A stretch of DNA of 64,000 bases from Erwinia sp. E602 (GTDB lineage: Bacteria > Pseudomonadota > Gammaproteobacteria > Enterobacterales > Enterobacteriaceae): NCBI RefSeq assembly GCF_018141005.1, contig NZ_CP046582.1, forward strand, positions 62,001-126,000, in the 5' to 3' direction. The notes beneath the pieces are model-generated. The model was not told the DNA's origin. It saw only the letters and a program-made list of their open reading frames with translations, and searched no databases. This document shows, piece after piece, positions 2,268 through 18,775 of the stretch. A program made the translations under genes and the position numbers. Numbering within the stretch: the first letter of the stretch is position 1; every line of letters starts with the position of its first letter.

Positions 2268-2417
2268 CGGGCGGCTTATCGGCTGAATAAAAGTTGCGCC
2301 TATCCTGCCGGGCGCGGATGACGCTTTTATTAACGGCGGATGACGTTTGCGATCCCGCCGGCTGCCGGACGCTGGCGGGCAGAAAAACCGCCGGAGGGTC
2401 GATCAACGCGGGCAATG

Positions 2418-2440
2418 ATGATAATAAGTGTTATTATCAT
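2418..2440 (+). promoter_or_regulatory. Fur box upstream of VibH-like gene
   Basis: A perfect inverted repeat with 10-bp arms ATGATAATAA and TTATTATCAT around GTG, rich in the GATAAT hexamers recognised by the ferric uptake regulator. It lies 70 nt before the ATG at 2511 and 150 nt before the divergent ATPase start at 2267. This implies repression of the condensation gene, and perhaps of the ATPase operon, when iron is plentiful. Confidence 0.8.
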
Positions 2441-2510
2441 TTGCAGTAAAATACAGCAGAAGCGCTTACCCTTCACCCGGCGGGGTGGGGGCTTAACGGA
2501 GGTAGGGATT

Positions 2511-3842
2511 ATGCCGCAACACGATTCAGCCAGTGACTGGCTGCCGCTGAGCCTCGCTCAGGCCGACTTCTGGCAGGAGTTTCTCTGCCACCGCGATCGG
2601 GCGCTCTCCACCGTGGCCCACTTCGTGGAGTTTGGCGACGGCGTACAGGTGCAGGCGCTGCAGCAGGCGATCGCCACCACCCTGCAGGAGACCGACGTGT
2701 TCGCGCTGGAGCTGCGTCTGCCTAAAGGGGCCAGCCTGCCGCAGCAGCGGGTCAACCCGCAACGTCGCCCCGCGCTGCAGATCCTCGATCTGCAGCACTG
2801 CGAGCATCCCGGGCACGCCGCCCGTCATCTGATGCAGCAGGATATCGATAAGCCGTTAGACCTGCTGCACGATCCGCTGGCCGCCAGCTGGCTGATCCGG
2901 CTCGCCCCTGAACGCGTTATCTGGTACATCCGCGCCCATCACATCATTATCGACGGCTTCGCCATGTCGCTGATTGAACACCGCTGCGCCACGCTCTACC
3001 GCCACGCGCTGGGCGAGGGCGCGGCGGGCGAGCGTCTGAACGCCTTTCCCGCGTTTCTTGACGAGGAGCTGACCTACGACGCCAGCCCGCGCTGCGTGAA
3101 GGATCGCCGCTACTGGCAGGAGCGGGTGGCGGGTGTCGCGCTGCCGGTGCTCAGTACCGATCGCGACGACTACTGCATTGCGCCGCTGCACGCCGCAGGC
3201 CAGCCGTCCGCGCAGCTGAGCGCCGGGCTGCAGCAGCTGGCCCTGCGCTGCGATACCGGCTGGCCGGATCTGCTGCTGGCGCTGAGCGCCGCCTGGCTGA
3301 GCCAGGCGCTGCCGGCGCGGCGCGATGAGCCCTACGCGCCGTTTACCGCCTGGGTGCCGCTGATGAACCGCCGCGGGCGGGTGGCGGGCTACGTACCGGC
3401 GCTGGCGGTGAATACCCTGCCGCTGCGGTTACAGCTGCACCCTGAGCAGACGCTGGCCGACTGGCTGGCAGAGGTGGCGGGCGATCTGCAGCGCCTGCGC
3501 GCCTGCGGGCGCTACCGCATTGAGAGGCTGGCCGCCGACTGCGGCCTGGCCCAGGGATCGCGCTTCCTTTATGCGCCGCTGATTAACGTGATGCCATTTG
3601 ACCCGCCGACCTTCTTCGGCTGCGACACCGTGCGTTCGGTAATGGCCAGCGGCAACGTCGACGGCTGCAACCTCAGCTGGCGCGCGCGCACCGACGGCAG
3701 CGGGCTGGAACTGGATCTGGACGCGTCACCGGCGCTGTTTAACGCGGCTGAGCTGGCGGATCAGGGTGCGGAGCTGCTGGCGTTTATCGGGCGGGTGCTG
3801 GAGGAAGGGGCGTTGCAGCGGCGAGTGGGGGACCTGCTGTAG
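2511..3842 (+). CDS. Free-standing NRPS condensation protein, VibH-like
   Basis: A single condensation domain of 443 residues with no adenylation or carrier domain. The catalytic motif is intact: His143-His144-Ile-Ile-Ile-Asp148-Gly149. Residues near the start (PLSLAQADFWQEF) and later blocks (WVPLMNRR, FLYAPLINVMPFD) resemble the EntF N-terminal C domain. The only well-known stand-alone C protein of this size (about 440 residues) in catechol siderophore synthesis is VibH, which transfers dihydroxybenzoate from an aryl carrier protein to a free polyamine. I chose ATG 2511 because GGAGGTAGGG lies just upstream; an in-frame upstream ATG at 2340 would put the Fur box inside the gene. A strong terminator follows at 4046. 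VibH-type function is inferred from size, domain and context. Confidence 0.85.
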   Translation: MPQHDSASDWLPLSLAQADFWQEFLCHRDRALSTVAHFVEFGDGVQVQALQQAIATTLQETDVFALELRLPKGASLPQQRVNPQRRPALQILDLQHCEHPGHAARHLMQQDIDKPLDLLHDPLAASWLIRLAPERVIWYIRAHHIIIDGFAMSLIEHRCATLYRHALGEGAAGERLNAFPAFLDEELTYDASPRCVKDRRYWQERVAGVALPVLSTDRDDYCIAPLHAAGQPSAQLSAGLQQLALRCDTGWPDLLLALSAAWLSQALPARRDEPYAPFTAWVPLMNRRGRVAGYVPALAVNTLPLRLQLHPEQTLADWLAEVAGDLQRLRACGRYRIERLAADCGLAQGSRFLYAPLINVMPFDPPTFFGCDTVRSVMASGNVDGCNLSWRARTDGSGLELDLDASPALFNAAELADQGAELLAFIGRVLEEGALQRRVGDLL

Positions 3843-4045
3843 AAAAATGATGGACTCAGTCTGGCGCAAAGTTCAGGCCGCACGTCAGCGTTTGTGCAGT
3901 GGAGGAGGCGCTGAGATCATTCCTGAGAGAGGCAAACTTCCCGGTCACGTAAATGCGGGTCGGCCAGTCTGTTTCTGACGCAGAGACAGCTAACCGGCCA
4001 GTCTGCCACTGGCTGAAAGGCAGAAAATCTGCGGTTAGCGCTGCA

Positions 4046-4081
4046 GGGAGCAGGGGCTGTAACGCCCCCTGCTCCCTTTTT
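4046..4081 (+). terminator. Rho-independent terminator of VibH-like gene
   Basis: 11-bp perfect stem GGGAGCAGGGG / CCCCTGCTCCC with a 9-nt loop, followed by TTTTT. The remaining bases from 3843 to 4094 show no gene. Confidence 0.85.
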
Positions 4082-4094
4082 CAGTGACGTGACA

Positions 4095-7000
4095 TTACTC
4101 TGTGACCAGCGCCACCACCTCCTTCGGCGTCCGACACTTAATCAGTGCCAGGGTCGCCAGCTGGCGGCCGAACGCCTGATTGATATCGGCGGCGATCGCC
4201 TGCATCTGCGGCAGCTTCATCCCCATGCTGATAAACACGCTGTTCTCATCCCATGCGGCGCTGCCGCCAGCATGCTGCTGACAGATGCTCAGCACCTTCT
4301 GCAGCGGCGTTTCACCGGTGGCGGCCGGGGCGGCGGTGATGCACTGCTGGCGGATCTGATGGCGATCGGTTTTGCCGTTGCTGGAGAGCGGCAGCGCGGT
4401 GGCGTGGATCAGCCGGGTCGGGATATGGCTGGCCGGCAGGAAGCGCGCGGCGAATTCCCGCAGGGCGCTCTGCGTCAGCGGCCGGTCGTCCCGCGTCAGG
4501 TACATCAGGCCGAGGCTGGCTTCGCTGCGCGCTTCAGCCATAAAATCGACCACCACCAGATCGCGGATCGCCGGGTGCTGCTTCAGCGCCTCTTCCACCT
4601 CCGGCAGCGACACGCGGATGCCGCGGATCTTCACGTAACCGTTGATGCGGCTGGCAAACATAATGGTGCCGTCCGTACGGTAGTACCCTTCATCCCCGGT
4701 TTTAAACGCCCGCACCGATTCACCCTGCGGCGTCGTCACCTCGACAAAGTCGTGCTGCATCAGCTGCCCGGCCTCCAGATAGCCCAGCGCCAGCCCGGCC
4801 CCGGCGGTATGGATGCGTCCGGTGACGCCCGGCGGGCAGTGTTCGCCCTGCTCGTTGCAGATCCAGTACTGCACCCCCGGCAGCGGCTGGCCGTACGGTA
4901 CCTGGCCGGTATCACCGGCTTCAATCTCATGCCAGATGCTCCAGATGGTGGTCTCCGTCGGCCCGCCGAGCGAGAACAGGCGCGGCTGGCCGGGCAGGGT
5001 GCGCAGGGTGGCCACCGTGGCCGGTTTAATATAGTCGCCGCCCTGGGCAATCAGCCGCAGCGACTTAAGGCCGCCTTCCGCTTTACAGGCCAGCAGCATC
5101 TCCAGAATCGCCGGCACCGAGCACCACAGGCTGACGCGGTGCTGCTCCACCAGCCGGTTCCAGGCAATGGCGTCCTTCTCCTGGTCCGCCGCCGGCAGCA
5201 CCAGCGTCGCACCGCTGCACAGCGCGCCGAACAGGTCGAACAGCGACATATCGTGGTGCGGCGGCGTCACCGAGATCAGCACGTCCTCCGCCGTCACCTG
5301 CCAGCGCTGGATCGTGTGCGCCAGCACGTTGGCGGTGGCGCGGTTGTTCAGCACCACGCACTTCGGCCGGCCGGTGGTGCCGGAGGTGTAGAGGAAGTAG
5401 GCCGGTTCGCTGCTGCGGCTGCGGGCGATCAGCTCTGCGGCCCCCGGACAGTGGCCGTGCTCCGCCACCGGCGTCAGCAGCTGCTGCGGGGTGATGCCGT
5501 TGGCCAGCCCGCTGATATCCTGGCTGACCACCCAGCGCGGCTGGCTGTTCTCCAGCAGATAGTGGCGGCGCTCCGGCGGCGAGTTGATGTCGATCGGCAG
5601 CCAGACCGCCCCCAGCAGTGCGCAGGCCAGCTGGCTGATGATCATCTCCGGGCCGCGCGGCAGGTGGAGGGCAATCACTTCGCCGGGCTGCACGTCGCGC
5701 TGCTGCAGCTGGCTGATGGCGGTATGCACCGCCTCCCCCAGCTGCAGGTAGCTGTAGCGGCGTTCGCCGCAGATCAGCGCGGTGTTATTCAGCTGGCCGC
5801 CGAACAGGTTACCGGCCAGCACCGCGAGGAACGGATACGCCGCCACCTGCTGCTCATCGCCGTTATGGCGGTAGTGATCGCACGGCAGGAATTCGGCGGC
5901 GCGGTCGGCGGGCTGGCCGCTGCACAGCCGCTGCACGCGTTCGCCAATGGCGGCGAGCAGCGCGGTAATCATCGCGTCATCCAGCGCCTGCTCGGCGTAG
6001 TCGATATTCAGCAGCAGGTTTTTGTGCTGATCGAGATTCAGGCGGATATCCATCGCCACCTGCGGCGTCTGCGTCAGGCCGTCGTGGAAACGCACCGGCG
6101 CATCGGCGGGCAGGTTGGTCCACGACAGGCAGTTGGTCAGGATAACCGGCAGCCCCGGCGCGCTGCTCTCTTTATTCAGCAGCAGCCTGGAGAGATCGAC
6201 GCCGGAGAACGCCAGATGATCCAGTGAGGTCAGCAGATCCTGCTGGAACGCCGCCGCCTGTGCCAGCAGCGGGGCAGCGGCATCGCGCCGCCACGGGGCG
6301 ACGATAAAGGTCGAGGCGTTGGTCAGGTTGCCGCCCGCCGCCGGGAAGGCCACCGGCACGCCGACGCAGATCTCGCCGTCCGGCGTCCACAGCGCCAGCG
6401 TATCGAGGATAATCGCCGACAGGGTGGTGTTGCGGAACAGCTTCTGCGCCGAGCCGACTTTCGACAGCGCCTTCAGCTGCTCGCGTGAGACGGTCAGGGT
6501 CTGGCGGCGGTAGCGCGAGCGGCGGATCGACTCCAGCGGCGCGCTCCACGGCAGCCGCGACGGCGAGCTGACGTCCTGCAGCTTCTGCTGCCAGTAGTGC
6601 TGATCCGCCAGCCGTTTTGCCGCGTCCACCGGCGGCGCTGCGACGGTTGCCGGTGTGGCAGCAGCAGCCAGCGGCGCGTCGTCAAACAGCCGGGTGATGA
6701 TGGCTGAAATGCCCTCGCCGTCGAGGATCAGCGCGTCAAAGCTGGTGAAAATCACCGTATCAAACGGCCCGTCCGCCAGCTGCACCAGCACGATGCCGTA
6801 CGGCGGCTGCGCCGGATCGTGACGGTTGTGCGAGTGCTGTTCACGGAGGGTATCGACCTGCGCCAGGGCCGCCGCACGCTCAAGATGGCGCAGATCCACC
6901 ACCTCCAGCCGCGCCTCTGCCGCAGGCAGCACGCGCTGGGTCAGGCGGTCGCTGTCAATGCAGGTGCGCAGCGCGGCGTAGTGCGCCACCAGCTGCTCCA

Positions 7001-8684
7001 GCCGGGCGCGTAACGCCGCCGGATCGGCGTGGCCGCGGTATTCGCGGAATTCGTGCATCGCCACGCCGCCCAGCGACCACAGCTCGCTGCGGCCCATCAG
7101 GTAGGCCTGCTGCAGCGGGGTCAGCGGCGTGCTGCCGTCGGCTGCCGCTGGCCGGCCGCTCACGCCGGAGGGTGTCGCCATCGCCCGCGCCGCACCGGGC
7201 TGTGCCAGTCCGGCCGTATTGCCGCTGCTGGCCGCTCCACCGGCTGAGCCGTGCGCACCGTTGCCGCCGGGGTGTCCGTCTGAACCCTGTGCCGCGTTGC
7301 CGCCGGCGTGACTGGCTGAGGATAAGGCCGCCCGGCCCGCCGCCGCAGCACCGTTTGCATCTGCGGCCCGATCGTCACCCAGCCCCGGCAGCAGCGCGGC
7401 CAGCGGCTGCGTCGCGCGTTCAGGATCGGCCGCCAGCTGGCTGAGCAGCTGGTGGTAGCGATCGAACAGGCCGTCGATACTGCCTGCAGGGAACGCATCC
7501 CGGCGCAGGTCCCAGTTGATCAGAATGCCGCCGTCGCAGGCCGCCACCTGGGCGTCCAGCGCCACCTGCGGCCCCTGGGAGATCACCCAGTTCATGCTGC
7601 CGAAGGTGCGCTGCACCTGCTCAGACCAGAGTTCGTCACCGTCGATGCCAAAACCGGCGGTAAACACCACCGGCGAGAACTGCAGGCTGCCGTGATGGCG
7701 CGACAGATCGCGCATCACGTTCACCCCCGGCCAGGCGGCGTGGCTAATCAGCTCGCCCAGCTGCGCCATCACCTGCTGGCCGTACTGCACCACGCTGGCT
7801 GCCGGATCGGGCTCGGCATTGAAGATCAGCAGATTGGTGAAATCGCCGATGATGTCGTCATTTTTGCTGCCGTAGTCGTCACGATGGAACAACGGCACGT
7901 TGAGGCGGAAGCGCGGCAGCGCCCAGCCTTCGGCCAGCGTGGCGGCAAACAGCGCGAGGAACAGCGCGCTGAGGGTCAGATGCTGTTGCCGCGCCAGCGC
8001 GGTTAACGCCTGCTTCTGCTGTGCGTCGAGCCTGACCGCCAGCCGGTCGATATGGCAGCGGGCGTCCTGAATCGGCACCGGCGGCGCCGGGGGAATCGAT
8101 GGCAGACGTGCCCGCCACCAGTCGCGATCGCGGTCGCGCTGCTGCAGGTTTGTCGCCTGCTGGTGCTGTTCCAGCCAGTGGAAAAAGCGGTTCTCCGTGG
8201 CGGCGATTGCCAGCCGGGGATGATGATAAAAGCGCGCCAGATCCTCCACCAGCAGGCGGAAACTTTCGGCATCGCCGGCGATCATATCAAGGCCGACGTG
8301 TAAACGGCTGCGATCGTCGGATAACTGCGTCAGGCCGATCTCACAGGCCTCGCCCGCGGTCAGATCGGGCAGGCGCGTGTTGCCGTGCAGGCGGCGTTCG
8401 GCAAGAAAGGCTTCACATTCTGTGGGGGTAGCTGCGCGCAGGTCGTCCACCCGCAGCAGGGTGGCGGGCAGCGGGCCGTCGGTATGCTGCTGGCCGTCGG
8501 CGTTAATGCGCAGGCGCAGCATCGGGTGAACCTGATACAGCGCCTCCACCGCCTGCCGCAGCCGGCCGGCGTCCAGCGCATGGCCGTCGAATTCGGCGTA
8601 AAGATGGGCGGCAACGCCCCCGAGATGCGGTTCAGATTGCCGGCCAACCCAGGAGGCGGCTTGCATGGCAGTCAGCGCTTTCAT
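4095..8684 (-). CDS. NRPS Cy-Cy-A protein with degenerate carrier domain, VibF N-terminal half
   Basis: 1529 residues. Domain order: heterocyclisation domain 1 (about 1-430) with the intact DxxxxDxxS motif as DMIAGDAES (Asp133, Asp138, Ser141). A Gly/Ala/Ser-rich linker follows (about 440-510). Heterocyclisation domain 2 (about 515-930) has DALILDGEG at Asp650, so the final Ser is Gly. The adenylation domain (about 940-1420) has YFLYTSGTTGRPK, GGPTETTIW, KTGDEGY and the C-terminal NGKTDR lysine. The last 80 residues look like a peptidyl carrier, but the FFxxGGHSL motif is VFISMGMKL, with Lys where the phosphopantetheine Ser should be. This matches the first three domains of VibF (Cy1-Cy2-A), which activates an amino acid and cyclises the aryl-aminoacyl intermediate to an oxazoline or thiazoline. 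The carrier it loads is probably the protein encoded at 15849. A Fur-like box lies upstream. Confidence 0.9.
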   Translation of the reverse strand: MKALTAMQAASWVGRQSEPHLGGVAAHLYAEFDGHALDAGRLRQAVEALYQVHPMLRLRINADGQQHTDGPLPATLLRVDDLRAATPTECEAFLAERRLHGNTRLPDLTAGEACEIGLTQLSDDRSRLHVGLDMIAGDAESFRLLVEDLARFYHHPRLAIAATENRFFHWLEQHQQATNLQQRDRDRDWWRARLPSIPPAPPVPIQDARCHIDRLAVRLDAQQKQALTALARQQHLTLSALFLALFAATLAEGWALPRFRLNVPLFHRDDYGSKNDDIIGDFTNLLIFNAEPDPAASVVQYGQQVMAQLGELISHAAWPGVNVMRDLSRHHGSLQFSPVVFTAGFGIDGDELWSEQVQRTFGSMNWVISQGPQVALDAQVAACDGGILINWDLRRDAFPAGSIDGLFDRYHQLLSQLAADPERATQPLAALLPGLGDDRAADANGAAAAGRAALSSASHAGGNAAQGSDGHPGGNGAHGSAGGAASSGNTAGLAQPGAARAMATPSGVSGRPAAADGSTPLTPLQQAYLMGRSELWSLGGVAMHEFREYRGHADPAALRARLEQLVAHYAALRTCIDSDRLTQRVLPAAEARLEVVDLRHLERAAALAQVDTLREQHSHNRHDPAQPPYGIVLVQLADGPFDTVIFTSFDALILDGEGISAIITRLFDDAPLAAAATPATVAAPPVDAAKRLADQHYWQQKLQDVSSPSRLPWSAPLESIRRSRYRRQTLTVSREQLKALSKVGSAQKLFRNTTLSAIILDTLALWTPDGEICVGVPVAFPAAGGNLTNASTFIVAPWRRDAAAPLLAQAAAFQQDLLTSLDHLAFSGVDLSRLLLNKESSAPGLPVILTNCLSWTNLPADAPVRFHDGLTQTPQVAMDIRLNLDQHKNLLLNIDYAEQALDDAMITALLAAIGERVQRLCSGQPADRAAEFLPCDHYRHNGDEQQVAAYPFLAVLAGNLFGGQLNNTALICGERRYSYLQLGEAVHTAISQLQQRDVQPGEVIALHLPRGPEMIISQLACALLGAVWLPIDINSPPERRHYLLENSQPRWVVSQDISGLANGITPQQLLTPVAEHGHCPGAAELIARSRSSEPAYFLYTSGTTGRPKCVVLNNRATANVLAHTIQRWQVTAEDVLISVTPPHHDMSLFDLFGALCSGATLVLPAADQEKDAIAWNRLVEQHRVSLWCSVPAILEMLLACKAEGGLKSLRLIAQGGDYIKPATVATLRTLPGQPRLFSLGGPTETTIWSIWHEIEAGDTGQVPYGQPLPGVQYWICNEQGEHCPPGVTGRIHTAGAGLALGYLEAGQLMQHDFVEVTTPQGESVRAFKTGDEGYYRTDGTIMFASRINGYVKIRGIRVSLPEVEEALKQHPAIRDLVVVDFMAEARSEASLGLMYLTRDDRPLTQSALREFAARFLPASHIPTRLIHATALPLSSNGKTDRHQIRQQCITAAPAATGETPLQKVLSICQQHAGGSAAWDENSVFISMGMKLPQMQAIAADINQAFGRQLATLALIKCRTPKEVVALVTE

Positions 8685-8742
8685 CAGATTCCCTCATGAT
8701 TAAGTGACGAAGACTGCCCGAATATATGCTAATACGAAACTA

Positions 8743-8761
8743 AATGAAAATGATTCTTATT
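8743..8761 (-). promoter_or_regulatory. Fur box upstream of Cy-Cy-A NRPS
   Basis: Read on the minus strand it is AATAAGAATCATTTTCATT, 16 of 19 matches to the core AATGATAATCATTATCATT pattern. It lies 58 nt before the NRPS start at 8684 and inside the 117-nt gap after the flavin monooxygenase gene, so the NRPS gene probably has its own iron-repressed promoter. Confidence 0.75.
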
Positions 8762-8801
8762 ACATTCATGCCAAATAAGAATCCCCTTAAACCACCTGAA
8801 C

Positions 8802-10106
8802 TTATTCGATACCGAGATGGCCGCCCAGCGTGCTGCTGGTGTATTCGCTGCGCAGCAGCCCCTCTTCGCTCAGGCGCGGCATCAGCTCCGCCAGCGTCAG
8901 ATCCATACTGCCCGGTGAACCGCCAGGGCAGGCGATAAAGCCGTCCAGCGCGCCGGCCTCGTGGTGCCGGCGGATCTCGCTTACCGCGTCCTCCACCGTG
9001 CCGATCACCTGCCAGTAGGCGGAGCCGACCACTTCCGGGCGGGTCATCAGATCGCTGAGCAGCGGCTGATCGCGTTCGATCAGGCGACGCAGCAGGATGG
9101 CGTGGGTCTGGCTGAAGACCTTGCCCGGCGGCGGCAGCATCTCCGGGGTGATACGCTGGTCCGGCGATAGCTCGCGCAGGTTAATCCCCAGCAGCTCGCT
9201 GGCGCGGGCGTAAGTGCGCTCCGGGTTCAGCCCGGCGTGGGTGGCGCGGTAGAGTTCGCGCGCCTCTTCGCGGGTGTTGGCCAGGTACAGGCTGACGCCG
9301 GGGATCAGGCGGATATCGTCGGCCTGGCGGCCGTGGGCCACCGCACGGCGGCGCAGATCGTTACGCAGCTCCACGCCGGCGGCCAGGTCCGGGGTGGCGG
9401 CAAAGATCGCATCGGCGGTGCTGGCGGCGAAGTCACGCCCGGTATCGGAGGCACCGGCCTGGAACAGCGGAATGCGCGGGCCGTTCCACGCCGGCACGTT
9501 TAGCGGGCCCTCGACGCTGAAGTACTCGCCAGCGTGGTCGATCGGCTGCAGCCTGTCGAAGTCGGCGTAAATCGCCGCCTCGCGATCGATGCGTACCGCG
9601 TCGCTCGGGTAGCTGGCCCACAGCTTGCGCACCACCTCAACAAATTCGCGTGCCTGCGCATAGCGCTGTTCGGACGGCGGCATCTCGCTGAGGCCAAAGT
9701 TGAGATTCCCGGCCAGCGAGGTGACCACGTTCCAGCCCGCGCGGCCGCGGCTCAGCTGGTTCAGCGACTGGAACTGGCGCGCCACCAGGAACGGCGTCAT
9801 GAAGGTGGTGGAGGCGGTAGAGACCAGGCCGATATGGCTTGTCTGGCTGGCGATCGAGGCCATCAGCAGGGTCGGATCGACGCTGCTGAAGTGCGGCGAC
9901 TCCACCGCGCCCTGGCGGGACAGCCACATGGCGTCCGGGCGGAACAGGAAATCCATTTTCGCCGCTTCGGCGCGACGCGCGAGATCAAGATAAAATTCGC
10001 TTGAGTAAATTCCTTCCACGTTACTGTCGTTACGGCGCCAGCCGTTGCCTGTCAGCCAGGTGACGGCCAGTGATAATCCTACGCATAACTGCCTGTTGTG
10101 ACCCAT
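8802..10106 (-). CDS. LLM-class FMN-dependent monooxygenase (NtaA/SnaA/DszA type)
   Basis: 434 residues. The sequence belongs to the flavin-utilising TIM-barrel monooxygenases that include nitrilotriacetate, pristinamycin and dibenzothiophene-sulfone monooxygenases: MDFLFRPDAMW near the start, the long SRGRAGWNVVTS block, WNGPRIPLFQAGASDTGRDFAA, and the C-terminal GTVEDAVSEIRRHHEAGALDG all fit the family. Such enzymes use reduced FMN from a separate reductase and O2; no reductase gene is visible nearby. ATG 10106 is preceded by AAGGAGAG, so I prefer it to the upstream in-frame start at 10130. The gene is divergent from the siderophore binding protein and co-directional with the Cy-Cy-A NRPS. 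A role in siderophore tailoring or in breaking down a chelate is possible; family members attack metal-chelating aminocarboxylates. This is inference. Confidence 0.85.
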   Translation of the reverse strand: MGHNRQLCVGLSLAVTWLTGNGWRRNDSNVEGIYSSEFYLDLARRAEAAKMDFLFRPDAMWLSRQGAVESPHFSSVDPTLLMASIASQTSHIGLVSTASTTFMTPFLVARQFQSLNQLSRGRAGWNVVTSLAGNLNFGLSEMPPSEQRYAQAREFVEVVRKLWASYPSDAVRIDREAAIYADFDRLQPIDHAGEYFSVEGPLNVPAWNGPRIPLFQAGASDTGRDFAASTADAIFAATPDLAAGVELRNDLRRRAVAHGRQADDIRLIPGVSLYLANTREEARELYRATHAGLNPERTYARASELLGINLRELSPDQRITPEMLPPPGKVFSQTHAILLRRLIERDQPLLSDLMTRPEVVGSAYWQVIGTVEDAVSEIRRHHEAGALDGFIACPGGSPGSMDLTLAELMPRLSEEGLLRSEYTSSTLGGHLGIE

Positions 10107-10244
10107 TGCACTCTCCTTATATCCTTGCAAATACTGCTGTTGTTGTCGCGTTGCTCGGGGAATATACTGCCCGTCGTTTGAGGATTTCGCAATGGAGCAG
10201 GGCTGCGGCGCTGCATGGATTAACCCTGAAGAGCGAAGGGAAAT

Positions 10245-11210
10245 ATGAGTAAGACTAATCTGTTATCGCGGTTTATCATGCCGCTGGCGCTGCTGCTGCT
10301 GGCGTTCCAGGGGCAGGCGCAGGCGGCAGAAGGCTGGCCACGTGAGTTTAAAAATGCCGACGGCACCACCACCAGCATTCCGGCGCAGCCAAAGCGGGTG
10401 CTCTCCACTTCGGTGACCGTCACCGGCACGCTGCTGGCGATTGACGCGCCGCTGGCGGGCAGCGCCACCGGCTCGAACAACGACTGGTATGCGCAGTGGG
10501 ACAGCGTGGCGAAGGCCAAAAAGCTGGAGAAACTGTGGCCGGCCGGCAGCGTCGATCTGGAGCAGGCCTATGCGGTGGCACCGGACCTGATCGTGGTCTC
10601 CACCGGCGGGGCCGACTCGGCGAAGGCGCAGCTGGCGGAGTTCCGTAAAATCGCCCCGACCATCGTCGTCGACTACGGCGGCCAGACCTGGCAGGCGCTG
10701 GCAGAGAAGCTGGGCGTCGCCACCGGCCACGAGCAGAACGCGGCAGCGCGAATTGCCGAATTTGACCAGACCGTGCAGCAGGCGCGCGCGAAAATCAGCG
10801 TGCCGCCGGGCAAAGCCAATATCATCAGCTTCAACGGTGCCGGTATCCCTAACCCGATCGCCACCGCGCGCGGCGTGCACAGCCGCCTGCTGGCGTCCCT
10901 CGGTTTCACCATGGAAGACCCGAACCCGGCCTGGCAGACCACCATCAAAGCGCAGAATGATTTTGTCTGGGCCACCTACGAGAACCTGACCCAGCTCACC
11001 GCCGAAACCAGCTTCCTGCTGCGCGCGCCGCAGGAGCGGGTGGACGCCTTCCTGCACGATCCGATGCTGGCCAATCTGCCGTCGGTGAAGAGCAGGCGGG
11101 TCTACAGCCTGGGGATTAACTCGTTCCGCGTGGATTATTACAGCGCGAACGAGATCGTGCGCGACGTGGTGAAAAACTTCGCTAAGCCTGCGGAAAACAG
11201 CGCGCAATGA
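10245..11210 (+). CDS. Siderophore ABC transporter binding protein, FepB-like
   Basis: 321 residues with a clear Sec signal peptide (cleavage near QAQAA). The mature chain matches FepB in several blocks: STSVTVTGTLLAIDAPLAG, the GGADSAKAQLAEF region and FRVDYYSANEIVRDVV at the C-terminus. It should bind a ferric catecholate in the periplasm and deliver it to the permease pair encoded next. The start has GAAGGGA a few bases upstream. Its stop overlaps the next ATG by 4 nt (ATGA), showing translational coupling. The gene lies opposite the flavin monooxygenase across 138 nt, where I see no convincing Fur operator. Confidence 0.9.
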   Translation: MSKTNLLSRFIMPLALLLLAFQGQAQAAEGWPREFKNADGTTTSIPAQPKRVLSTSVTVTGTLLAIDAPLAGSATGSNNDWYAQWDSVAKAKKLEKLWPAGSVDLEQAYAVAPDLIVVSTGGADSAKAQLAEFRKIAPTIVVDYGGQTWQALAEKLGVATGHEQNAAARIAEFDQTVQQARAKISVPPGKANIISFNGAGIPNPIATARGVHSRLLASLGFTMEDPNPAWQTTIKAQNDFVWATYENLTQLTAETSFLLRAPQERVDAFLHDPMLANLPSVKSRRVYSLGINSFRVDYYSANEIVRDVVKNFAKPAENSAQ

Positions 11211-12217
11211 CCCCGATCCTGCCCGCCCGGCTGCGCCGCGCGGGATTTCTCTGCGGCCTGATCCTGCTGCTGCTGCTGGCGCTGGGCAGCGTGTTTATCG
11301 GCTCGCGGCCGATCGCACCATCGGTCACCTGGCAGGCGCTGTGGCAGGTTGACGGCCGTAACAGCGAGCATCTGCTGGTGCACTACCTGCGCCTGCCGCG
11401 CGCGCTGCTGGGGCTGGTGGTCGGCATCGCGCTCGGCGCGGCGGGAACGGTGATGCAGGCGCTGACCCGCAATCCGCTGGCCGATCCGGGCATTCTCGGG
11501 GTCAACGCCGGGGCGACGCTGGCCTGCGTGATGGCGATTGCCTTTCTCGGGCTGGTGGATATCAACCAGTACATCTGGTTTGCGCTGGGCGGCGCGGCGT
11601 TGACCGGTGCTGCGGTGTGCGCGCTGGGCGGCCTGCGCGGCAATAATCCGGTGCGCATGGTGCTGGCCGGGGCGGCGCTGTCGATCGTGCTGCTGGCGCT
11701 GACCTCGCTGATTACCGTCAACAGCGATGAGGCGATCTTCGATCGCTTCCGCCACTGGGCGGTGGGCTCGCTGCAGGGGCGCGGCTACGACGTGCTGCTG
11801 CCGACCACGCTGCTGGTGGCGCTGGGCATCGGGCTGGCGCTGCTGCTGGCCCCGGCGCTGGACACGCTGGCGCTGGGGGTGGATCTCGGCAAATCGCTGG
11901 GGGTCAATCCGCTGCGCGTCTGGCTGCTGGCCGCGCTGGCGATCGTGCTGCTGTCCGGCGCGGCCACCGCGGCGGCCGGGCCGATCGGCTTTATCGGCCT
12001 GACCGCGCCGCACTTCGCCCGCGCTTTCGCCGGTAACGACCACCGCTGGCTGCTGCCGTACGCGATGCTGCTGTCGGCGCTGCTGATCGTCGCGGCGGAT
12101 ACGCTGGGGCGGCTGGTCGGTTACCCTGGCGAGATCAGCGTCGGCATTATGGTGGCGCTGCTCGGCGGGCCGGTGTTTATCGGCCTGGTACGGCGCTGGA
12201 AGAGGGTTCAGCCATGA
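11207..12217 (+). CDS. Siderophore ABC transporter permease, FecCD family (FepD-like)
   Basis: 336 residues, very hydrophobic, with about ten membrane spans expected for the FecCD/BtuC family. Recognisable blocks are LRLPRALLGLVVGIALGAAG, MQALTRNPLADPGILGVNAG, and the ATPase-coupling and C-terminal region GPIGFIGLTAPHFAR and GYPGEISVGIMVALLGGPVF. It forms the inner membrane channel with the next gene product for import of the ferric siderophore. It is coupled to both neighbours by 4-nt ATGA overlaps. Confidence 0.93.
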   Translation: MTPILPARLRRAGFLCGLILLLLLALGSVFIGSRPIAPSVTWQALWQVDGRNSEHLLVHYLRLPRALLGLVVGIALGAAGTVMQALTRNPLADPGILGVNAGATLACVMAIAFLGLVDINQYIWFALGGAALTGAAVCALGGLRGNNPVRMVLAGAALSIVLLALTSLITVNSDEAIFDRFRHWAVGSLQGRGYDVLLPTTLLVALGIGLALLLAPALDTLALGVDLGKSLGVNPLRVWLLAALAIVLLSGAATAAAGPIGFIGLTAPHFARAFAGNDHRWLLPYAMLLSALLIVAADTLGRLVGYPGEISVGIMVALLGGPVFIGLVRRWKRVQP

Positions 12218-13260
12218 AACTTACAAGGATGGTTTCCGGCAGCGTGCTGCGCTGGCGGGGAGTGTCACTGCGCTATTCGGCGCGCAACGTGACGGTGTGC
12301 GCCGCGCTGCTGCTGCTGGCGCTGGTGATGGGCTGCTATGCAATGACCGTCGGGCGGCTGCCGATTAGCGCGGGCCAGCTGTTTTCGGCGTTAAGCGGCC
12401 ACGGCGACGGCGGCATGCGCGACCATATCGTGCGCAATATCCGCCTGCCACGGGTGCTGGTGGCGCTGTTTGTCGGCGCGGCGCTGGGGGTCTCCGGCGC
12501 GCTGTTCCAGTCGATTTCGCGCAACGTGCTCGGCTCGCCGGATATCATCGGCTTTACCACCGGCGCGGCCAGCGGCGCGCTGCTGCAGATCGTGCTGTTT
12601 GACGGCGGCACCCTGCAGGTGGTGCTGTGGGCGCTGTGCGGCGGGCTGTTCACCGCGCTGGTGGTCTGGCTGCTGGCGCGGCAGAACGGCACGCTGCGCG
12701 GCTATCAGCTGATCCTCACCGGCATCGGCGTCGGGGCGATCCTGCATGCCCTTAACGGCCTGCTGCTGGTGAAGGGCGATCTCGATAACTCGGTATCGGC
12801 CAACCTGTGGCTGGCGGGCACCACCGCCGCGCGCAGCTGGGATCACGCGCTGCCGGTGATGGCCGGCTTCGTGCTGCTGCTGCCGCTGATACTGATCGGC
12901 GCCCGGCGGCTGAAAATGATGGAGATGGGCGACGACCTCTCCAGCCAGCTGGGTATTCCGGTCGAGCGGATGCGTGCGCTGATGCTGTTTGCCGGGGTGC
13001 TGCTGGCCGCGGTGGCCACCAGCGCCACCGGGCCGATCGCCTTTGTGGCGCTGGCGGCACCGCAGCTGGTGGTACGCCTGACCCGCAGCCAGGGCATCCC
13101 GGTAATGGGTGCGGCGCTGATGGGGGCCTGCCTGCTGATGCTGGCCGACCTGCTGATTCAGCTGCTGCCCGCCGGGCTGACCGTGCCGGTCGGCCGTATG
13201 ACCGGCATCATCGGCGGCCTGTATCTGCTGTGGCTGCTGACCCGCACGCGACAAATCTGA
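12214..13260 (+). CDS. Siderophore ABC transporter permease, FecCD family (FepG-like)
   Basis: 348 residues, second FecCD-type permease subunit. Visible family blocks are RNIRLPRVLVALFVGAALG, SRNVLGSPDIIGFTTGA, GPIAFVALAAPQLVVRL and PVGRMTGIIGGLYLLW. It pairs with the FepD-like protein in the inner membrane. The expected third component, a FepC-type ATPase, does not follow: the transcript meets a short hairpin and then the receptor gene. The ATPase must come from elsewhere in the genome, perhaps from an enterobactin or other catecholate system. Confidence 0.93.
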   Translation: MKLTRMVSGSVLRWRGVSLRYSARNVTVCAALLLLALVMGCYAMTVGRLPISAGQLFSALSGHGDGGMRDHIVRNIRLPRVLVALFVGAALGVSGALFQSISRNVLGSPDIIGFTTGAASGALLQIVLFDGGTLQVVLWALCGGLFTALVVWLLARQNGTLRGYQLILTGIGVGAILHALNGLLLVKGDLDNSVSANLWLAGTTAARSWDHALPVMAGFVLLLPLILIGARRLKMMEMGDDLSSQLGIPVERMRALMLFAGVLLAAVATSATGPIAFVALAAPQLVVRLTRSQGIPVMGAALMGACLLMLADLLIQLLPAGLTVPVGRMTGIIGGLYLLWLLTRTRQI

Positions 13261-13270
13261 CTCACTCAAG

Positions 13271-13291
13271 TGCCCGTTAGAACGGGCATTT
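13271..13291 (+). terminator. Short hairpin after FepG-like gene
   Basis: Stem TGCCCG / CGGGCA with a 6-nt loop, followed by TTT, 11 nt after the stop codon. A weak intrinsic terminator separating the uptake genes from the receptor promoter. Confidence 0.5.
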
Positions 13292-13325
13292 CATGCTAAG
13301 TTCAAAATTTCCCCGAAATCTCTCT

Positions 13326-13361
13326 GATAATGATTTGCATTAGCATGTGCAAATCATTATC
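13326..13361 (+). promoter_or_regulatory. Extended Fur operator upstream of TonB-dependent receptor
   Basis: Two 14-bp arms, GATAATGATTTGCA and TGCAAATCATTATC, form a perfect inverted repeat around 8 nt. Each arm holds GATAAT-type Fur hexamers, so two Fur dimers may bind. It lies about 260 nt before the receptor start at 13624. The rest of the 363-nt gap (13261-13623) shows no gene I can support. Confidence 0.8.
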
Positions 13362-13623
13362 CTCCTTAACGAATTTTTACGTTCTGTTGCCAGACCATCT
13401 TCCCTGCCGCTTACCCCGAAAAAGCGGCATGACGATGCGCTAAGCCACACAGTGCGCAATGGTTTTGGTATCAGCTGGCGGCAACGCTCTGGCGGATTAG
13501 CAGGGATATGCAGTACATCAGGCCATGATGGCCGGTAAAGCCATTAGTAATGTGAATGATATTGTCGTTTTAACCTTTCAAAACAACAAAAAGCAGTGCG
13601 CATCTGGGACAGGAGAAGGACAC

Positions 13624-15759
13624 ATGGCTGAGCGCTTAAAGGCTCAAGGACACCCGGCAGCAGGCCTGGTGGTCAAAAGAACAGTTTCATCAATGCTGAT
13701 TAGTCTGTGCATTTTTGGCGCAGGCAGTGCCGCAGCAGCGGAAACCGCCGCCGCGACCGACGCTAAGCAGGCGGACGTCGCAGAGCAGGATAAAAAAGCC
13801 CCGGTGGACGGCACGCTGATCGTCACCGGTGAGAAATCCAACCGCTCAATCTACGACACCGGCTCCAGCGTTAAGGTCTTTGATAAAAACGCCATCGACG
13901 CACTGCCGCACGCGGTAGAAATCCGCGACATCATGCAGCAGATCCCCAATATTACCGACGTGGGTCCGGGTAACGATCTGCCGACCGTGCGCGGCCTGGA
14001 CGGCTCCGGCCCGGCGACGGGTGCAGGTGCGTTTGTCACCGGTAACCGTCCGCGTATCAATATGTCCGTCGATGGCCGTTCTCTTGGCTACAACGAAATG
14101 GCCTACAGCAGCCAGTCGCTGTGGGATATGGATCGTGCCGAAGTCTTCCTTGGCCCGCAGAGCTACGTGCAGGGGCGTAATGCCATCGCAGGTGCGGTGG
14201 TCATGACCACCCGTAACCCGACCTTTGAGTGGGAGAGCGCGGTAAAAGGCGGCTGGGGCAACCAGCACAGCTCACAGATGGCGGCGATGGTCTCCGGCCC
14301 GCTGGTCGAGGATGAGCTGGCCTTCCGCGTCAGCGCCGATCGTCAGCGTCGTCTGAGCTTTGTTGATCTGGTTGACTATGAGCCGTATCCGCACAAGGTT
14401 AAAGAGATCGAAACCAACACCGCGCGTATGAAGCTGCTGTATAACCCGTCTTCCCTGCGTGAACTCAGCACCATGCTGACGTTTAACCATTTCGACAGCG
14501 TGGCACCACAGAACGAAGCGTTGAGTCCGGAAACGAATCCGAACGTGGCCCGATACGATCGTCGCCGCGCGGTGTTCCAGAGCCAGTACAACAGCACCAT
14601 CTGGGATATCAGCTGGGAGCAATCCGAGCAGCTGAAACTCTCAAACAAAATGATTTATACCGACTTCAACCAGCATCGTCACCATATCGCCGATTCGCTG
14701 GGTGGCGTCAGTGCCAAAGTGGATGGTCACGAGTTCCAGACCTCGCCGCTGGTGAACTTTGCAACGGATGATAATACCTGGCGTGGTCTGGCAGGGCTGA
14801 ACTTTTTCCGCGCCAGCCAGGACGAGTTTGTGAACCTCGCCTCGTTCTTCGCCGGTGGGGCCAACTTCCGGGATGAAACGCAAACTCAAGCGGCGTTCGC
14901 CGAGCTGACGTATGCCTTCAATCCACAGTGGGAGCTGACCGGCTCCAGCCGTATTGAGCGTGAGCACCGTCGCCGTTACGGTATTGGCAGTGCATCCGCC
15001 GTTGATTTTGATGAAACATACGATGTGTTCCTGCCTAAGCTGGACCTGGCCTGGCACCCGACCGAGGGCCAGACCTACGGTGCAAAAGTAGCGCGAGGTT
15101 ATAACGCAGGTGGCGCGGGCGTGACCTTCGCCGCGCCGATCGTTACTTACAGTTATGGTGCGGAATACGTCTGGAACTACGAGCTGTACTCCCGTCATCA
15201 TATCGACGCGGCAAACCTCGATTTGACCAGTAACATCTTCTATAACGATTACAAAGATATGCAGTTGCCATACAGTCTGGCATCGGGCTCGACGGTGATC
15301 CGTAATGCGGATAAAGTCGTCACCTATGGCGCTGAGCTGGGGGCGGTATGGAAGCCGACCTTTGACTTCGAACTGAACGGCGGCGTGGGCCTGCTGAAAA
15401 CGGAAATCAAAGAGTTCAGCGGCAGCCTGAATGAGGGCAACTCTCTGCCGCGTGCCCCGGGTTACACCGCTAACCTGGGTGCCAGGTATATGCTGTTCCC
15501 GGGCTGGGAACTGAGCGGCAACGTTAAGTGGAGTGGCGCTTACTACTCCGCCTATGATAACGACAATCGCGGCCGCATATCGCCGTTCTGGACCTCAAAT
15601 GCGCAGCTGGCATGGACCTTCCAGTATGGTCGCGCCACCCTGTATGCGCAGAACCTGTTTGATAACGATCACTCTACCAACATCGTCTCTAACGACCGTA
15701 ACGTGCCAATCACGCTGCGCGATCGCTTAGTCGGTACCACCGTCGAATTTAACTTCTGA
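13624..15759 (+). CDS. TonB-dependent outer membrane siderophore receptor
   Basis: 711 residues from ATG 13624, chosen because AGGAGAAGGA lies just upstream; longer in-frame starts at 13525 lack a ribosome site. A long basic N-terminus and hydrophobic core ending near GSAAAAE form the signal peptide. A TonB box-like segment DGTLIVTG begins at residue 62, followed by a plug domain (VKVFDKNAIDALPHAVEIRD, DLPTVRGLDGSG, RAEVFLGPQS) and a 22-strand-type barrel ending in the terminal Phe of VEFNF. It imports the ferric form of a siderophore across the outer membrane using TonB energy. Location between the uptake and NRPS genes and a strong Fur operator suggest it serves the siderophore made here. 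The particular ligand cannot be read from the sequence. Confidence 0.92.
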   Translation: MAERLKAQGHPAAGLVVKRTVSSMLISLCIFGAGSAAAAETAAATDAKQADVAEQDKKAPVDGTLIVTGEKSNRSIYDTGSSVKVFDKNAIDALPHAVEIRDIMQQIPNITDVGPGNDLPTVRGLDGSGPATGAGAFVTGNRPRINMSVDGRSLGYNEMAYSSQSLWDMDRAEVFLGPQSYVQGRNAIAGAVVMTTRNPTFEWESAVKGGWGNQHSSQMAAMVSGPLVEDELAFRVSADRQRRLSFVDLVDYEPYPHKVKEIETNTARMKLLYNPSSLRELSTMLTFNHFDSVAPQNEALSPETNPNVARYDRRRAVFQSQYNSTIWDISWEQSEQLKLSNKMIYTDFNQHRHHIADSLGGVSAKVDGHEFQTSPLVNFATDDNTWRGLAGLNFFRASQDEFVNLASFFAGGANFRDETQTQAAFAELTYAFNPQWELTGSSRIEREHRRRYGIGSASAVDFDETYDVFLPKLDLAWHPTEGQTYGAKVARGYNAGGAGVTFAAPIVTYSYGAEYVWNYELYSRHHIDAANLDLTSNIFYNDYKDMQLPYSLASGSTVIRNADKVVTYGAELGAVWKPTFDFELNGGVGLLKTEIKEFSGSLNEGNSLPRAPGYTANLGARYMLFPGWELSGNVKWSGAYYSAYDNDNRGRISPFWTSNAQLAWTFQYGRATLYAQNLFDNDHSTNIVSNDRNVPITLRDRLVGTTVEFNF

Positions 15760-15777
15760 CACACCGCGTCCGACCCC

Positions 15778-15807
15778 CGGGGAGCCCTGCGCTCCCCGAC
15801 CTCTTTT
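15778..15807 (+). terminator. Hairpin between receptor and C-T-C NRPS
   Basis: Stem CGGGGAG / CTCCCCG with a 7-nt loop, then ACCTCTTTT. Only 89 nt separate the receptor and the NRPS gene, so this may lower rather than stop read-through into 15849. Confidence 0.5.
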
Positions 15808-15848
15808 CCGGCCAGTCCGCTGGCACCAGCCGCTAACAGGAGAACAAC

Positions 15849-18086
15849 GTGAACGGCGATCTCATCCAACCAAGTGACTTTGAACAGCAGGAGTGGTTTA
15901 TCCACCAGCAGCAGATCCCGCCGGTGCAGCATGCGCTGGCCTGGCAGCTGGATGCTGCGCTGGATCTCAACCAGCTGGAACGCGGGCTGGTGGCACTGGT
16001 TGCCGCCAACCCCTGCTTCAGCCTGCGCTACCGCTTTGACGATCGCAGCGGCCTGATTAAAACCACCGACGCCGCCGCGCTGCCGCCGGTGTCGCGTCAT
16101 CCGGCCAGCAGCGTGCAGCAGGCGCTGGACGCCGTAACGCTGCAGCAGGCCAGCGCGTTCGATCTTCACCATACCTCGCCGGTGCGCTTTATGCTGTTCA
16201 GCCTGGCGTCCGGCGAAGCGATTCTGGCCGTGATTGCGCACCAGATCCTGGCGGAGCAGCTGTCGTGGGACGCGCTCAGCGCTGCGCTGTCGGCGGCGTA
16301 TCAGCAGCAGCCCGCGCAGCTGAACGGCCAGGCGGCAGCGGGTTGCGACCTGGCGACCTCCGGTCAGCACGTTGCGCTGACGCTTGCAGGCGTCATCAGC
16401 CAGCCGCTGGCGCTGGCCGCCGTCGCTTCTCCGGCGGAAGCCCCGCCGGTGGCCGCTGATAACGCCGCCATCGTGACGGCAATCCTCACTGAATTCCGCG
16501 ACGCGCTGGCGATGCCGCAGATGCGCGCCGAAGATGACTTCTTTGACCAGGGCGGCCACTCGCTGATTGCCACCCGGGTGATCGGCCGGCTGCTGAGCCT
16601 GCATCAGATTGAGGTGAGCATTAACGATCTGTTCAGCTACCCGACCGCGCAGGCGCTGGCTGCCCAGGCGAAACAGCACCAGCCTGCCGCCGCTGCGGCG
16701 GCCACGGCGGTAACGCCCTTTAATGAAAAGTCTGCCCCGCTGTCGCTGGCGCAGCAGTCGCTGTGGAAAATCTACGCGGCGATGGGCTATGGCGACATCT
16801 TCAACCTGCCGTTTGTGCTGCGTTTTGTGGATGAGGTCGATGAAGAGCTGCTGCATCAGGCGATGCACGATGTGCTGGTGCGTCACGCTGGGCTGCGCAC
16901 GCTGTTTATGACCACCGGTGAGGGGGTGCGCCAGCGTATCGTACCGGCCGCTGAGCTGGGCAACTATCGCTGGTTCTGGCCTTCTGCCGCTGAACAAAAA
17001 CCCGCAGCGGCGCTGCTGAAACAGGAAGCTGCGCATCTGTTTGATCTGGCTCACGAGCTGCCGCTGCGCCTGCGCTTTACCCGTGACGCCGCCAGCGGCG
17101 AGCAGCTGCTGTCGCTGCTGTTCCACCATATGGTGCTGGACGAATGGTCGCTCAACCTGATGATGGACGATCTGCAGCAGGCCTACCAGGCACGTGCCGC
17201 TGACCGTCTGCCGCAGTGGCAGGAAGCGGCAATCCCGTTCCATGAGTTTGCCATCGGCCAGCATCAGTCGGGCCTTGGCCAGCAGCATCTGAACTACTGG
17301 CTGGATACCCTGCGCGGCGTGCCGCTGGGTAAACCGATCTTCTCCGGCCAGGCGGCAGACAGCCAGATCATTGATACCACTACCGATCTCTCTGGCAGCA
17401 ACCTGGAATTCACCCTGCCGTCGGAGGTGACCGCCGGCCTGTATGCGCTGAGCAAGCGCCACAGCGCCTCGCTGTTTAACGTGGTCTATGCCGGTATCGC
17501 CAGCACGCTGCACTTCCTCGGCGGACCGGCGGATATGGTCATCGGAACCTCGGCTTCCGGGCGTAACGACGCACGCTACTTTGACACGGTGGGCTACTTC
17601 ACCACCGTGGTAGCGCACCGGCTGCGCTTTGACCGTGCGCCAACGCTGGCCGCGCTGGTAGCCCAGGTGAAAAGCACCATCAACGACTCAATGCCGCACA
17701 CCGATGTGCCGATCGACATGGTGGAAGAGGCGCTGCTGGGTGAGGGTGCCCGCGAGGATGCGCATATGTTTGAGGCGTTTATCCAGATCCATTCGCGCAT
17801 CAAGTTGAACGGTGCCTTCACGCTGCCGGACGGCCGGCAGATTGCCTGGCGCCAGGTGGACGGCGAGAAGAGCGAGTCGATCCTCGGCCTGCAGTTTGAG
17901 ATCATGGAAGAGTGGGAGGCCGGTGAAAAATCGCTGCGTCTGATGATGACTTACCGCAGTGACCACTACACGGCGGCTCAGGCGGAGAAAATCACCGCCA
18001 CCACCCAGGCACTGCTGGGGCTGTTCTCACGCCCTTCGGCCAGCGATCCGCTGCTGGCCAGCTTGCGCGCGGAGCTCGCGCTGTAA
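15849..18086 (+). CDS. NRPS C*-T-C protein, VibF C-terminal half
   Basis: 745 residues from a GTG start preceded by AACAGGAGAACAAC. Residues 1 to about 165 are the N-terminal half of a condensation domain; its HHxxxD motif reads AHQILAE, so the first His and the Asp are lost and the second half is missing. A peptidyl carrier domain follows (about 205-285) with intact DFFDQGGHSLIA, the phosphopantetheine acceptor being Ser238. A full condensation domain (about 300-745) carries His426-His427-Met-Val-Leu-Asp431-Glu432. The order C1-PCP-C2 equals the second half of VibF. The carrier would be loaded in trans by the adenylation domain of the 4095-8684 protein, and C2 would pass the cyclised aryl-aminoacyl group to the amide-amine made by the VibH-like protein. 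A strong terminator follows the stop. Confidence 0.9.
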   Translation: MNGDLIQPSDFEQQEWFIHQQQIPPVQHALAWQLDAALDLNQLERGLVALVAANPCFSLRYRFDDRSGLIKTTDAAALPPVSRHPASSVQQALDAVTLQQASAFDLHHTSPVRFMLFSLASGEAILAVIAHQILAEQLSWDALSAALSAAYQQQPAQLNGQAAAGCDLATSGQHVALTLAGVISQPLALAAVASPAEAPPVAADNAAIVTAILTEFRDALAMPQMRAEDDFFDQGGHSLIATRVIGRLLSLHQIEVSINDLFSYPTAQALAAQAKQHQPAAAAAATAVTPFNEKSAPLSLAQQSLWKIYAAMGYGDIFNLPFVLRFVDEVDEELLHQAMHDVLVRHAGLRTLFMTTGEGVRQRIVPAAELGNYRWFWPSAAEQKPAAALLKQEAAHLFDLAHELPLRLRFTRDAASGEQLLSLLFHHMVLDEWSLNLMMDDLQQAYQARAADRLPQWQEAAIPFHEFAIGQHQSGLGQQHLNYWLDTLRGVPLGKPIFSGQAADSQIIDTTTDLSGSNLEFTLPSEVTAGLYALSKRHSASLFNVVYAGIASTLHFLGGPADMVIGTSASGRNDARYFDTVGYFTTVVAHRLRFDRAPTLAALVAQVKSTINDSMPHTDVPIDMVEEALLGEGAREDAHMFEAFIQIHSRIKLNGAFTLPDGRQIAWRQVDGEKSESILGLQFEIMEEWEAGEKSLRLMMTYRSDHYTAAQAEKITATTQALLGLFSRPSASDPLLASLRAELAL

Positions 18087-18097
18087 ACTGACAACGT

Positions 18098-18123
18098 ACG
18101 GGGCACCCGCCCCGTCCTTTTTT
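18098..18123 (+). terminator. Rho-independent terminator of C-T-C NRPS gene
   Basis: Stem ACGGGGC / GCCCCGT, 4-nt loop ACCC, followed by CC and six T. It marks the right end of the siderophore locus. Confidence 0.85.
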
Positions 18124-18775
18124 CTGACCGGAGGCGCTGCCCGATCGCTCTTATCGCGCGGTGCTTTTGGCCCACTCTGCCTGCCTCTTTCTCTCTCCCC
18201 GTCGGCCTGACTGCTTGTGTACGTAAAAACCTGTTTATCTGATACTCACCTGCTGCCCCTGCTGTGCTCCTGTCCGTTAGCCTGCCCGGTTTTCGTCCCA
18301 CCGCCTGCGCATTAAGCCAACCCGTTAAACGCTGCACTAATGTTATTACCGCAAGACAACCTGAAAAAAGTAATGGATTTTAGTCCATATTTTAATGCGA
18401 TATTTTATTTTAAATAAAATGCCATTATGTATTTTAAATCTCGCGACATTTTTAGTTTATAGAAATGCAAGTGGGAATGGGTAAAATTTGTTGTGACACA
18501 CCCTGCAATAACCTACTGATTGATTTAGGTTGTCATGGCGATAATCTTTTTTTGTTTTACAGGGAATACCTGCAATCAACAAACTTCACTGCATTCAATT
18601 TTATTTAATTTAAGGGGTGGAGCCTGAGAAGAGTAAATTCGGCGTTAAGGTTTTTTTAATTGACAGAAATAATAATCCTTACTTCTGTAGTAAGCCCGTC
18701 TGAATATTTTCATAGAAAACGGCAGCCAGAGAAGGCGGGCTGTTGGTTTTTATTCGATAATAAGGAATGGCAGTG
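18124..18775 (+). other. AT-rich gene-free leader of the autotransporter gene
   Basis: About 650 nt without a supportable gene. From about 18350 the composition turns strongly AT-rich, unlike the surrounding DNA. A TTGACA at 18660-18665 could be a -35 element, but no good -10 sits 16-18 nt after it. The AT content suggests horizontally acquired DNA and possible H-NS silencing; both are inference. Confidence 0.5.

Follow-up and report, generated by a model that had tools for sequence, protein, structure and literature searches.

A probable serratiochelin-like siderophore cluster with a split VibF-type assembly line in Erwinia sp. E602, and a carrier-like domain lacking the pantetheine serine

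The split assembly line and its domains

How is a VibF-type siderophore assembly line organized when its domains lie on two proteins encoded on opposite strands, and what does such a line make? The question is raised by a siderophore biosynthesis and uptake cluster of Erwinia sp. E602, which spans positions 2511-18086 of the window, that is, of the whole 64,000-nucleotide stretch analysed (positions 62001-126000 of contig C2, NZ_CP046582.1, in a genome of 5.17 Mb and two contigs). A sequence-only reading of this stretch had described a split VibF-type line with a VibH-like partner, and domains, motifs and alignment confirmed it. We describe here the genes of the cluster, their order, domains and motifs, together with the dihydroxybenzoate (DHB) and diamine genes found elsewhere in the genome. 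The cluster is very probably iron-regulated, making and importing a catechol-oxazoline-diamine siderophore most like serratiochelin.

The VibH-like gene (2511-3842, plus strand, open frame from 2340) encodes a stand-alone condensation protein of 443 residues (PF00668), whose closest match in the PDB was VibH (1l5a, E 1.9e-50). Its motif, HHIIIDG, agrees with the HHIxxDG rule for VibH-type amide synthases given in PMC7962358, and the protein is therefore assigned to these enzymes.

The 1529-residue protein (4095-8684, minus strand) contains the two successive heterocyclization (Cy) domains with DxxxxD motifs that VibF-type lines require, Cy1 (residues 2-425, 7410-8681, DMIAGDAES) and Cy2 (5850-7139), followed by an adenylation (A) domain (residues 957-1440, 4365-5816). 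The code of the A domain, DMFCAGLIWK, read at positions that we take to be those of GrsA, predicts threonine; it is the same in 107 of the 120 listed homologues, P0206 and P0226 of Serratia share it too, and a single position sets it apart from VibF. Because the code is shared with these Serratia proteins, and threonine is reported as the amino acid used in Serratia (PMC7962358), an oxazoline ring is predicted; the thiazoline that had been offered as an alternative is not expected. The Cy-Cy-A composition given earlier was present, and a tail had been overlooked, namely a carrier-fold domain of 80 residues without the pantetheine serine, here called T* (residues 1449-1529, 4098-4340).

The 745-residue protein (15849-18086, plus strand, GTG start) comprises the N-terminal lobe of a condensation domain, C1 (residues 10-159, 15876-16325), without HHxxxDG, a carrier (T) domain with GGHS (residues 195-284, 16431-16700) and a second condensation domain, C2, with HHMVLDE (residues 295-740, 16731-18068). 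The carrier and C2 that follow the lobe are both active by motif. Its description as C-T-C thus holds for the last two domains; the first is a lobe without the catalytic motif. Joined and aligned to VibF, the two halves follow the VibF order as had been claimed, with the full-length C1 missing between A and the carrier, only the N-terminal lobe being found, on the separate protein. The single-polypeptide form of VibF was likewise not found here, and split forms are the rule among the listed homologues.

C1 was found in 119 of the 121 C-T-C homologues scanned, the window protein included. This common build rules out an unrelated pathway for the 745-residue protein, one of the outcomes that had been named in advance as fatal to the reading. 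The complete HHxxxDG motif occurs in none of 120 C1 regions and the second histidine is missing from 115, in a count that takes in P0087, P0105 and the gapped P0090 and P0094. Some details weigh against the assignments as made: the Cy2 motif ends in G instead of S; C1 is absent from P0087 (labelled partial at source) and P0105 (from a 3.2-kb contig); HHxxxD is kept in two of the 120 (Photorhabdus P0097 and P0120), so that C1 is not uniformly dead; and an earlier, cruder count gave HHxxx[DE] strings ahead of the carrier for 13 of 120 homologues. Three loci of Vibrio and Motilimonas (L031, L051, L061) have two or three tandem carriers between C1 and C2.

Uptake genes and Fur-like sites

Between the two assembly-line genes lie a gene for an NtaA/DmoA-type FMN-dependent monooxygenase (8802-10130, minus strand; TIGR03860 above cut-off) and, on the plus strand, genes for a FepB-like periplasmic binding protein (10245-11210; NF008200 above cut-off), two FecCD-type permeases (11207-12217 and 12214-13260; PF01032) and a TonB-dependent siderophore receptor (13525-15759; TIGR01783 above cut-off). 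The binding protein and permeases are of the enterobactin type. The permeases have no ABC ATPase gene beside them in the cluster, to which the search for one was confined; this counts against the siderophore reading.

Iron control is suggested by sites resembling the Fur box, scored against what we take to be the Fur consensus. Seven matches of at least 13/19, which overlap and fall at four places, were counted in 2001-19000, whereas simple shuffles gave 0.25. The best-scoring sites at three of the four places precede the amide synthase gene (2420-2438, 15/19), the Cy-Cy-A gene (8746-8764, 14/19) and the receptor gene (13326-13344, 16/19).

Precursor supply and proposed pathway

The DHB genes entC, entE, entB and entA were located in the interval from obgE to dacB (C2:516.7-521.1 kb), about 0.44 Mb from the cluster, and the aryl carrier motif of EntB is GLDS. 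The trans-acting DHB ligase and the separate aryl carrier that the sequence-only reading had predicted are thus present in the same genome as EntE and EntB. The combination of DHB genes with a separate VibF/VibH cluster in one genome is that of the serratiochelin pathway, for which DHB genes elsewhere in the genome are also reported (PMC7962358). An EntD-like phosphopantetheinyl transferase was found under its model's cut-off. For diaminopropane, dat (above cut-off) and an adjacent diaminobutyrate decarboxylase homologue (under cut-off) lie at C2:171.7-174.6 kb, about 0.1 Mb from the cluster.

The distance of the DHB genes counts against the proposed role, as they could serve another pathway. 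They might mainly feed an EntF-like C-A-T-TE protein at C2:4.09 Mb (L007:8132-12076), the A domain of which has a serine-like code when read by eye; the route would then be enterobactin-like and the window cluster secondary or silent. We consider this very improbable. Full-length relatives of the EntF-like protein (60-73% identity) occur in 14 of 36 other congeners, nine of which lack EntE above cut-off, and the protein therefore does not travel with DHB; EntE itself was above cut-off in 15 of the 37 genomes of the genus, including the source genome. Moreover, among six congener loci fetched, four have an EntF-type gene adjoining entCEBA, and the EntF-like protein is merely 34-35% like its product; the other two have entCEBA at the obgE-dacB site. 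As an explanation of the DHB genes, the EntF-like protein is ruled out by its congener distribution. The latter two loci (L122 and L123, of congeners G021 and G020) showed no EntF-type match at that site, and each of these congeners has a nonribosomal peptide synthetase (NRPS) frame of 2865-2931 residues elsewhere, perhaps for another catechol pathway.

By analogy with VibF and serratiochelin, the product, substrates and order of steps can be proposed for the window cluster. DHB would be made by EntC, EntB and EntA, activated by EntE and loaded onto the aryl carrier of EntB. The VibH-like protein would form the amide between one DHB and a diamine, which is probably diaminopropane, and the A domain of the 1529-residue protein would charge L-threonine in trans onto the carrier of the 745-residue protein. 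Cy2 would then attach DHB through an amide bond and Cy1 would close the oxazoline ring, a division of labour between tandem Cy domains that follows PMC12005286. C2 would transfer the acyl group with the oxazoline to the DHB-diamine at its free amine, and the iron complex would be re-imported by the binding protein, permeases and receptor. The two halves of the line may find each other through the terminal T* of the A protein, perhaps together with the dead C1 lobe with which the carrier protein begins.

Relatives with the same genes use differing polyamines, and a single SchH of Serratia plymuthica accepts both diaminopropane and putrescine (PMC7962358). No clear correlation between amide-synthase residues and the polyamine is reported in the same paper; sequence therefore does not settle the diamine, which counts against the scheme. 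The same machinery could give a photobactin-, fluvibactin- or agrobactin-like product with putrescine, norspermidine or spermidine, and the transport block does resemble those of V. furnissii and Photorhabdus. We regard another amine as rather unlikely: the genome has dat and the decarboxylase homologue for diaminopropane, and the VibH-like protein is closer to those of Serratia (45-46% identity) than to those of Vibrio or Photorhabdus (37-42%).

Comparison with related systems

The serratiochelin cluster p2 of S. plymuthica V4 (schH, schF1, schF2, schF3) is the nearest kind, represented in our comparison by five loci of other Serratia species (L027, L028, L029, L053, L055). The order and strands of the VibH-like, A, Cy, receptor and C1-T-C2 genes agree with the window, which bears out the earlier suggestion of serratiochelin as the comparison. 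The Serratia loci differ in that Cy1 is a protein of its own, C1 is longer, and the monooxygenase and ABC genes are missing between. SchF1F2F3 and SchH, with schF3 and schH knock-outs, are precedents in PMC5635690 and PMC7962358.

The fluvibactin locus of V. furnissii (L042) shares with the window the block of monooxygenase, periplasmic binding protein, two permeases, receptor and C1-T-C2 genes, and is unlike it in that Cy-Cy-A lies outside the block, the VibH-like gene adjoins the monooxygenase gene, and C1 is longer. Two vibF homologues (vfbF1 and vfbF2), seven genes apart, three of these being transport genes, are reported for V. fluvialis and V. furnissii (PMC13180887, 2026). VibF and VibH of V. 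cholerae have the same domain order, with 29-49% identity by segment; VibF is nevertheless one protein, with a full-length C1 and without T*. A cluster on an E. coli plasmid (L133) is collinear with that of the window and has T* and C1, but it lacks the monooxygenase and its C1-T-C2 protein is longer. Agrobacterium tumefaciens B6 (L035), presumably an agrobactin maker, has Cy-Cy-A-T* and C1-T-C2 on opposite strands, a VibH-like gene and the monooxygenase, in a different gene order. In acinetobactin biosynthesis, BasA, BasD and BasB are likewise dissected A, Cy-Cy and carrier-condensation proteins (PMC12005286), with N-hydroxyhistamine as the amine and a separate A protein; the Acinetobacter locus L058, the proteins of which we equate with the Bas proteins by inference, has no VibH-like match.

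A split VibF is therefore an established kind, as the Serratia, V. furnissii and E. coli plasmid loci and PMC13180887 show, to which the window contributes a member whose gene set is intermediate between those of Vibrio and Serratia. The division over opposite strands, which had been thought remarkable in itself, is not unusual: the Serratia loci and the published parallels rule this out. A similar monooxygenase gene is also found in the related siderophore clusters from Agrobacterium, Rhizobium, Labrenzia, Roseibium, Azorhizobium, V. furnissii and Paracoccus sp. MA, and is missing from the Serratia and E. coli versions; because of this recurrence it is likely that the monooxygenase has a role in this siderophore family.

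A carrier-like domain that accompanies splitting

The new point is that a dead carrier-like domain, T*, is found on the cut proteins and is lacking in the uncut enzymes; nothing describing it was found in the open-access literature searched. The predicted structure has the four-helix carrier fold (AF2 pLDDT 81 for an 85-residue piece) and matches carriers. The position of the pantetheine serine is L in the window and P, L, F or A in 119 of 120 homologues, with a gap in one. Since it is never S, T* is ruled out as a working carrier. The domain has its own motif (GL.P.HL, C[RK]N).

Among 189 proteins with exactly one A match above 550 bits, T* without a cis carrier was found in 180, a cis carrier without T* in eight, and neither in one (P0128). 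T* is thus present in all but one of the 181 related A proteins that lack a cis carrier and in none of the eight that have one, the hidden Markov model for T* having been built from 119 of the same proteins and the protein and locus sets overlapping. The fused proteins are V. cholerae VibF (P0247), retrieved by a protein search with a Paracoccus enzyme, and Paracoccus types such as that of P. denitrificans L135 (Cy-Cy-A-T-C2, 1905 residues); these eight include near-copies (P0243 and L135), incomplete frames (P0245 and L132) and one protein in which no C2 was found (P0253). Clustering at 80% left 76 representatives, five of them fused, and on the tree the fused state changes four times and T* five times. 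T* tracks splitting in four of four independent contrasts (sign test, p 0.125, which is the floor because there are only four contrasts). In one pair, fused P0246 and its split relative P0278 have a common linker, ILSG...DTPA, after which P0278 continues into T* and P0246 into an active carrier.

We tentatively propose that T* may dock the adenylating or cyclizing protein onto the C1-T-C2 protein, most likely through the inactive C1, and that in fused A-T proteins it would be dispensable and is absent. Docking would fit the observed pattern, which by itself does not imply C1 as the partner. It is also a real possibility that T* is a neutral relic of the carrier of an ancestral module, or a structural C-terminal cap. 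The loss of the serine, the small number of independent contrasts and the presence in fused enzymes of another domain at the place of T*, which could itself act as a cap, all speak for this and weigh against docking. Its retention in 180 of 181 unfused proteins, with a motif of its own, speaks for a docking domain. So does its presence on Cy-Cy proteins without an A domain, which a cap for the A domain would not explain; where the Cy-Cy and A proteins are separate, as in Acinetobacter (L058) and Snodgrassella (L063 and L085), both carry T*. The separate Cy1 protein of Serratia has none.

Further points tell against docking or against T* as defined. P0128 of Brenneria tiliae, an unfused Cy-Cy-A protein, has no T* and ends 23 residues past the A domain, a possible truncation. 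Fused VibF retains C1 without T*, and the link of C1 to splitting is therefore weaker than that of T*. The residue after the serine position is S in 63 of 120 homologues, so that a misalignment by one residue would confuse the two. The Pfam carrier model matched the window T* at E 0.026, under cut-off, and 29 of the 30 members of set A2 at E up to 1, and Foldseek gave no match for T* below 0.001.

Docking through T* would explain how, in NRPSs dissected in the vibriobactin, acinetobactin and agrobactin manner, a carrier on another protein is loaded. This proposal can be tested, and it also gives the inactive C1 a possible purpose. If true, an inactivated carrier and condensation pair would serve as a connector between proteins, and such a natural docking pair would aid the splitting and recombining of NRPSs.

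Distribution and genomic surroundings

Erwinia sp. JH02 has the nearest named homologues of both halves, at 65% over 96% of the 745-residue and 75% over 67% of the 1529-residue protein. The C1-T-C2 protein was found in one of 37 genomes of the genus, the source genome, and in 10 of 295 genomes of the family, a figure that includes the source genome and two weak matches inside 3618-residue frames. It is therefore probable that the window cluster was acquired horizontally and uses resident DHB genes; a similar mixing of clusters is reported for serratiochelin (PMC7962358). In a class-wide search of 274 genomes, the Cy-Cy-A protein was found in the source genome only.

The collinear E. coli cluster (L133, NZ_CP146684.1:38646-69690) lies on a conjugative IncF plasmid of strain MS 196-1, and among 5426 complete E. 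coli genomes its Cy-Cy-A gene has a counterpart in 13, eight times on a plasmid (at least 99% identity) and five times on the chromosome (about 87%).

The window cluster has a sugar-type ABC ATPase gene (1164-2267) on one side and an autotransporter gene (18767-21976) on the other, both apparently unrelated to it. The autotransporter, of 1069 residues, is encoded directly downstream of the cluster, and the G+C content is 48.5% in 18001-20000 against 58-68% in the preceding 2-kb blocks.

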